Assembly: GCA_003222535.1 (NCBI GenBank) | Contig: QHWJ01000298.1 | Coordinates: 1 to 40,517, forward strand | Origin: Acidobacteriota bacterium | Lineage (GTDB): Bacteria; Acidobacteriota; Vicinamibacteria; Vicinamibacterales; CAVVIG01 | Direction: 5' to 3' | Length of the DNA stretch: 40,517 nucleotides | Translations under genes and position numbers: made by a program | Part shown: positions 11,052 to 11,698 of the stretch, piece after piece | Position numbering within the stretch: the stretch's first letter is position 1 | How the letters are laid out: each line of letters begins with the position of its first letter | The notes under the pieces: model-generated | Told to the model about the DNA's origin: nothing | Databases searched by the model: none | Seen by the model: only the letters and a program-made list of their open reading frames with translations

Positions 11052-11072
11052 GGCGACCCTTTTAGGGTCGCC
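11052..11072 (-). terminator. stem-loop after the selenoprotein gene
   Basis: GGCGACCCT and AGGGTCGCC form a perfect 9-bp stem with a TTT loop, 24 bases past the stop codon of the minus-strand gene ending at 11096. No long U run follows. Confidence 0.55.
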
Positions 11073-11095: not shown

Positions 11096-11698
11096 CTACG
11101 ACTGACCGCGGACGTAGCCTTGCGCCGCCATGCGCTTCCCGCTCATGCGATAGGCGCTCGCGGGCAAATCGTGGACGCCGGTGGCGTCGATCCAGGCGTT
11201 GTAGAACCGGAAAAGCGCGCACACCGTGATGGCGTCATAGACCGCCTCGTCGCTCCACCCTGCCGCTTTCACCCGGTCGACGTCTTCGCACCGGATGAGG
11301 TTCGACTGCTCGTTCATCTTCTCGATGAACGCGAACAACGCCTTTTCTCGATCGTCGATCGGTGCCGAGCGGTAGTCCTCGATCACCGCATCCACGAGCG
11401 CTCTATCCCCGAGGAGCTCCGCCGCGACCGCGGCGTGTGAGCCGATTCAAAACGGGCACGCGTTCCGCCGGGACGTAAACGCGGCGATCAACTCCCGCTG
11501 CCCGGCCGAGAGAGGCGACGACCCGCGCATGACCCCCTGGGTGAAGTGCGCCAGGTGTTCCGTGCGATCGGGCTTGAACGCGAACAGATGCATGATCTGC
11601 GGAACCGGAAGCCCTGCTCCGCGCATCTGGCGAATAGCTTCCGCCCACGGTCCGCCGCCCTCATGCTGTTCGACTTCCGGCAAGTACATTTGTTCCAT
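11096..11698 (-). CDS. AhpD-like peroxidase-related selenoprotein (UGA read as selenocysteine)
   Basis: A 200-residue carboxymuconolactone decarboxylase/AhpD-fold protein, complete only if the UGA at 11449-11447 is read as selenocysteine. Upstream of it the frame runs from ATG 11698 (AGGA 6 bases ahead) as MEQMYLPEVEQHEGG through GQRELIAAFTSRRNACPF; downstream the same frame continues IGSHAAVAAELLGDRALVDAV to YNAWIDATGVHDL and stops at 11096. The joined active site is C81-P-F-U84 with H88, where this family normally has CxxC and His (CPFC or CPYC). The frame never shifts and homology covers both sides, so a chance stop is unlikely. A hairpin fitting a bacterial SECIS starts 3 bases after the UGA. 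The role is expected to be peroxide or thiol redox defence in the cytoplasm (no signal peptide). Standard gene calling would split it into two fragments. Confidence 0.85.
11415..11443 (-). promoter_or_regulatory. candidate bacterial SECIS hairpin
   Basis: In the mRNA, after UGA-AUC comes GGCUC (lower stem), ACA (5' bulge), CGCCGC (upper stem), GGUC (apical loop), GCGGCG, GAGCU. Both stems pair fully (6 bp upper; 5 bp lower with one G-U). Counting the UGA as 1-3, the loop G-U is at positions 22-23, very close to the GU of the Escherichia coli fdhF SECIS loop, which is known to contact SelB. A bulge on the 5' side of the stem is also typical. All of it lies inside the coding frame, as bacterial SECIS elements do. 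Confidence 0.75.

Follow-up and report, generated by a model that had tools for sequence, protein, structure and literature searches.

Selenocysteine (Sec) is encoded by UGA, a codon that automated annotation would read as a stop, and the locus considered here raises the question of which of these two meanings applies within the active site of a redox protein. The gene lies in a stretch of 40,517 nucleotides from an Acidobacteriota bacterium, referred to below as the window. Several lines of comparative evidence indicate that it is almost certainly an AhpD-like, peroxidase-related selenoprotein gene, whose UGA84 would be decoded as Sec through tRNA-Sec and SelB, together with an in-frame SECIS hairpin located downstream of the codon.

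A single reading frame containing one UGA

The gene occupies positions 11698-11096 of the minus strand and comprises 200 codons. Codon 84 (11447-11449) is its one in-frame TGA, and the frame closes with a TAG, whilst the plus-strand frame over 11096-11698 gives no meaningful reading. An earlier note on this DNA, which gave no strand, had reported a single frame broken only by a UGA at the second active-site Cys, in the motif CPF-U-IGSH; this description is accurate and its coordinates (11096-11698) are exact. In full, the active-site motif reads Cys81-Pro-Phe-Sec84-Ile-Gly-Ser-His88, with the UGA at the second active-site position. Cys81, the first residue of the CPFU active site, is encoded at 11456-11458 and His88 at 11435-11437, and Glu69 lies upstream at 11492-11494, all on the minus strand.

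An AGGA located just 5' of the ATG could act as a ribosome-binding site. Between the selenoprotein gene and the next gene downstream, a perfect inverted repeat, GGCGACCC-TTTTA-GGGTCGCC, is found at 11052-11072 of the window; it may serve as a terminator for either strand, and went unreported by the terminator scan. The promoter and terminator scans returned nothing.

Membership of the AhpD-like family and the predicted redox centre

With Cys placed at the UGA, the score of the protein is 107.7 bits against the TIGR01926 profile (curated cut-off 81.8) and 32.2 bits against Pfam CMD PF02627 (cut-off 23). The comparison of the joined 200-residue protein with the AhpD and carboxymuconolactone decarboxylase families that had been suggested earlier therefore places it above the cut-off of both models. 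Five proteins of solved structure, 2pfx, 3c1l (Mlr4105), 6k40, 2oyo and 2prr, are homologous to it (E 1e-16 to 1e-24) over 120-155 residues that take in the active site. These are of the same TIGR01926 type and Cys81 aligns with a Cys in them, but all carry Cys-x-x-Cys where the window protein has Sec in the second position.

The proton relay of Mycobacterium tuberculosis AhpD has been described and involves Glu118, Cys130, Cys133 and His137 (PMC3141380). Sequence matches of the window protein do not include M. tuberculosis AhpD itself. The two proteins, together with Pseudomonas aeruginosa PA0269, nevertheless have in common the spacing Glu-12-Cys-x-x-Cys/Sec-4-His on a conserved two-helix motif (PMC3141380). 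The window protein differs from both in having Sec for the second Cys and Phe where His132 (AhpD) or Tyr50 (PA0269) is found. As Glu69, Cys81, Sec84 and His88 are spaced in the same way as Glu118, Cys130, Cys133 and His137, Sec84 is taken to stand for the second catalytic Cys. Glu69 and Cys81 are invariant in 79/79 Sec forms, and His88 is placed by its spacing and by the family alignment; Glu69 and His88 are thus the residues expected to provide the proton relay.

AhpD-like selenoproteins with a CxxU motif have been described since 2005, in the Sargasso Sea and GOS surveys (PMC1088965, PMC2398784), and a 2026 review contains an entry for an AhpD-like protein of TIGR01926 with CxxU (PMC13188914). 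MCB9421940.1 serves as the reference for AhpD-like TIGR01926 selenoproteins. These published proteins (TIGR01926/COG2128) resemble the window protein in their family model, in having Sec second and in having a SECIS directly after the UGA, and the window gene therefore adds a member to a kind already described. The published CxxU entry nonetheless represents other sequences, likened here by family model and motif rather than residue by residue, whereas the present clade belongs mainly to Acidobacteriota, Gemmatimonadota and Myxococcota. Three (seleno)protein models, NF041238 (AhpD_rel_CFYUT), NF041047 and NF053654, describe an AhpD domain related to that of the window protein, and CxxU members are given for the first two of these (PMC13188914). 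The window protein is assigned to none of the three because its scores fall far below their cut-offs (37.3 against 175 bits for NF041238), and no selenoprotein model in NCBIfam 20.0 reaches its clade. A literature search on the annotation of selenoproteins by PGAP/NCBIfam yielded nothing useful.

Conservation of the UGA codon and selection on both sides of it

In the best 80 of 130 loci from a scan of named bacterial genomes, picked by similarity to the Sec query, the site codon is TGA in 77/80, Cys in 3/80 (CKFC in L090, TPFC in L099 and L120) and never TAA or TAG. As the same codon recurs in 77 of these 80 loci and the other three have Cys, the TGA is not a chance occurrence. An unrelated stop in relatives, proposed beforehand as grounds for rejecting a selenoprotein, is thus not found at this site. 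These best 80 of 130 loci span Acidobacteriota, Gemmatimonadota, Myxococcota, Planctomycetota, Chloroflexota and others. Cultured members of Myxococcus, Pyxidicoccus, Citreicoccus and Archangium are among the Myxococcota represented, e.g. L087, the homologue in Myxococcus xanthus AM003. Within the window's own family, a TGA orthologue is present in four further genomes (G009, G018, G022, G025) and a Cys orthologue in two (G004, G026). The three closest of the named loci, L046-L048, evidently come from the same genomes as G018, G009 and G022, judging from matching identity and selA results.

The nearest relative, L046, is 87% identical at the amino acid level, with an identity of 0.86 over the 83 codons upstream of the TGA and 0.88 over the 113 codons downstream, in agreement with the earlier observation that homology continues on both sides without a frameshift. 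Comparison with L046-L048 gives a dN of 0.08-0.12 and a dS of 0.8-1.2 on either side of the UGA (dN/dS about 0.1). Since dN and dS are alike on both sides, the stretch behind the UGA appears to be translated and under selection.

These results bear on the possibility that the gene is a recent pseudogene, in which a Cys codon (TGC or TGT) became a TGA stop, or that the TGA is a sequencing error. A single base change suffices to convert TGC to TGA, but a TGA fixed in 77/80 of the best 80 of 130 loci across several phyla refutes this explanation for the family, and purifying selection downstream of the codon speaks against it for the gene itself, leaving it very improbable.

Another AhpD-like frame, distinct from the first and likewise containing a TGA, was encountered in a relative belonging to the same family (L035, G013:C194:42549-42941). 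It is about 35% identical and has the motif CHY-U-IRHH, and no NCBIfam family matched over the stretch tested.

A SECIS-like hairpin downstream of the UGA

A bacterial SECIS-like hairpin is predicted at 11420-11435 of the minus strand, beginning 12 nt downstream of the UGA; it has a 6-bp stem (CGCCGC/GCGGCG) and the tetraloop GGUC (11429-11426). Published values for bSECIS elements comprise a loop of 3-9 nt, a stem of 4-16 bp, a G in the first two loop positions, a distance of 16-37 nt from the UGA and a minimum free energy of at most -7.5 (PMC13188914). The window hairpin lies within all of these, having a 4-nt loop, a 6-bp stem, 17 nt from UGA to loop and -17.7 kcal/mol for nucleotides +4 to +42. 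Taken singly it is unexceptional, as 16% of synonymous reshufflings are equally stable and 22% are able to form a 6-bp stem. Its folding energy, not being significant against synonymous reshuffling, was therefore dropped as evidence for a SECIS, and the case rests on comparison across the family. The Rfam families do not capture the element: all of them, run at gathering score over the whole window, gave no match, and the UGA region, scanned permissively, yielded chance matches only.

Over most of the gene the 79 UGA forms vary freely in their synonymous codons, whereas immediately behind the UGA (codons +4 to +9) these are nearly frozen; codon +5 is GCC in 74/77 and codon +8 is GCG in 78/79. 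Among rows with a GU loop, 58 close it with G-C and 15 with A-U, and mixed pairs are absent. Both versions are synonymous (GCG GTC versus GCA GTT), and the A-U rows are scattered across several parts of the tree. The Fisher value for this covariation is 7e-16 with relatedness ignored. In Cys orthologues the hairpin or its loop has been lost, and a conserved hairpin that disappears with the Sec codon is a further argument against a pseudogene.

The selenocysteine machinery

The window's own genome encodes a tRNA-Sec with anticodon TCA (L001, 58.5 bits), selA (L009, 531 bits) and selD (L020, 352 bits, C19:2733-3656), so that selA, selC and selD occur together. A second tRNA-Sec-like match on C301 (50.2 bits) was rejected as a tRNA-Ser. 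The selD gene likewise codes for a selenoprotein, its catalytic position being an in-frame TGA codon (SCAG-U-ASK).

A variant genetic code, in which UGA would be read as Trp or Gly, could likewise account for a frame that is open through the UGA. However, the gene contains only one UGA, at a site that holds Cys in homologues, and Trp or Gly in place of the catalytic Cys of AhpD would be expected to abolish its chemistry. Moreover, the genome has its own tRNA-Sec, selA and selD, and general use of UGA as a sense codon was not seen, the selA match containing none and the matched part of selD one, at its own known Sec site. Such a code is thus barely conceivable here.

The selB gene (L013/L014, C90:12378-14331) is present, but a deletion of about 113 nt relative to L127/L128 shifts its frame and splits it, and the genome yielded no second selB. 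The gene is intact in the relatives L126-L128. The search for sel genes that the earlier note had called for was therefore borne out for selA, selC and selD and in part for selB, which is present but interrupted in the assembly. If real, the deletion would mean that Sec can no longer be inserted in the window strain, and a broken selB in the same assembly would also suit a pseudogene. A narrower reading is that decay is confined to this strain: the gene would be a selenoprotein gene by descent, selB would have just been lost and the product would now be truncated. However, the remainder of selB is open (a 566-codon frame), selA, selC, selD and the SECIS are intact, and the assembly is a fragmented draft of 450 contigs, in which local misassembly is common; decay in the strain is accordingly given a small probability. 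Because the rest of the pathway is intact and the assembly is so fragmented, the selB deletion is most likely an assembly error.

Among the distinct genomes examined that carry the UGA form, selA is found in 21/22; in the remaining one, G045, selA is undetectable and tRNA-Sec is present. Two of the genomes with Cys orthologues (G004 and G026) have no selA, whilst the Cys loci L090 and L099 lie in genomes that have it.

A model for decoding and function

The proposal that this gene encodes a selenoprotein, made initially from the window alone, is upheld by the conservation of the UGA, by a SECIS-like hairpin at the correct distance with both constraint and covariation, and by the presence of tRNA-Sec, selA and selD. 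From these sequence data, insertion of Sec is predicted with high confidence. Ribosomes would arrive at UGA84 whilst the hairpin holds SelB with Sec-tRNA-Sec, and Sec would be inserted. Sec84 would then occupy the place of the second active-site Cys, which in M. tuberculosis AhpD is Cys133. The resulting redox centre, Cys81-Pro-Phe-Sec84, would probably relay protons through Glu69 and His88, and the enzyme so formed would be an AhpD-like oxidoreductase whose redox pair consists of Cys and Sec.

By analogy with its relatives, the protein probably works as a thiol/selenol-disulfide oxidoreductase or peroxidase, and perhaps as a peroxidase or as a reductase partner of a peroxiredoxin. Pfam identified no ahpC neighbour among the adjacent window ORFs tested. 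Apart from closely related pairs, e.g. L046/L047 and L072/L087, the orthologues have no conserved neighbours, and for this reason the gene context does not allow a functional partner to be inferred.

Evolution of selenocysteine and cysteine forms

Maximum-likelihood analysis groups the 79 Sec and 5 Cys rows in a single clade that excludes 3 outgroup Cys proteins; the Cys rows are nested within Sec-bearing groups and need three changes. Most simply, Sec would be old in this clade and Cys would have taken its place about three times, a reading limited by rooting and by sampling, as the loci were chosen via a Sec query (best 80 of 130). A broader proposal, advanced tentatively and held with somewhat less belief than doubt, is that these proteins may constitute an AhpD-like subfamily of their own, with Sec as the ancestral and prevailing residue across several phyla and with Cys arising later, about three times, along with loss of the SECIS loop. 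As the subfamily would be covered by none of the selenoprotein models of NCBIfam 20.0, annotation may present its cultured members, e.g. those of Myxococcus, as truncated proteins.

Two other arrangements of Cys forms were observed. One Bryobacteraceae MAG carries the paralogues L099 (1738-2331) and L120 (3588-4181), whose TPFC motif has Thr at the first active-site Cys and Cys at the Sec position. In the selA-less genomes, three AhpD-like Cys paralogues stand in tandem (L028/L038/L044 on C64 of G004; L029/L037/L045 on C22 of G026).

Implications

The gene adds a well-supported selenoprotein to the Acidobacteriota at a locus where automated annotation would give two fragments. The family as a whole represents a natural experiment, in which Sec is retained almost throughout and the few Cys converts have lost the SECIS loop, two genomes also being without selA. 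The same UGA form occurs in cultured myxobacteria, and both the insertion of Sec and the gain that it brings over Cys are therefore measurable.
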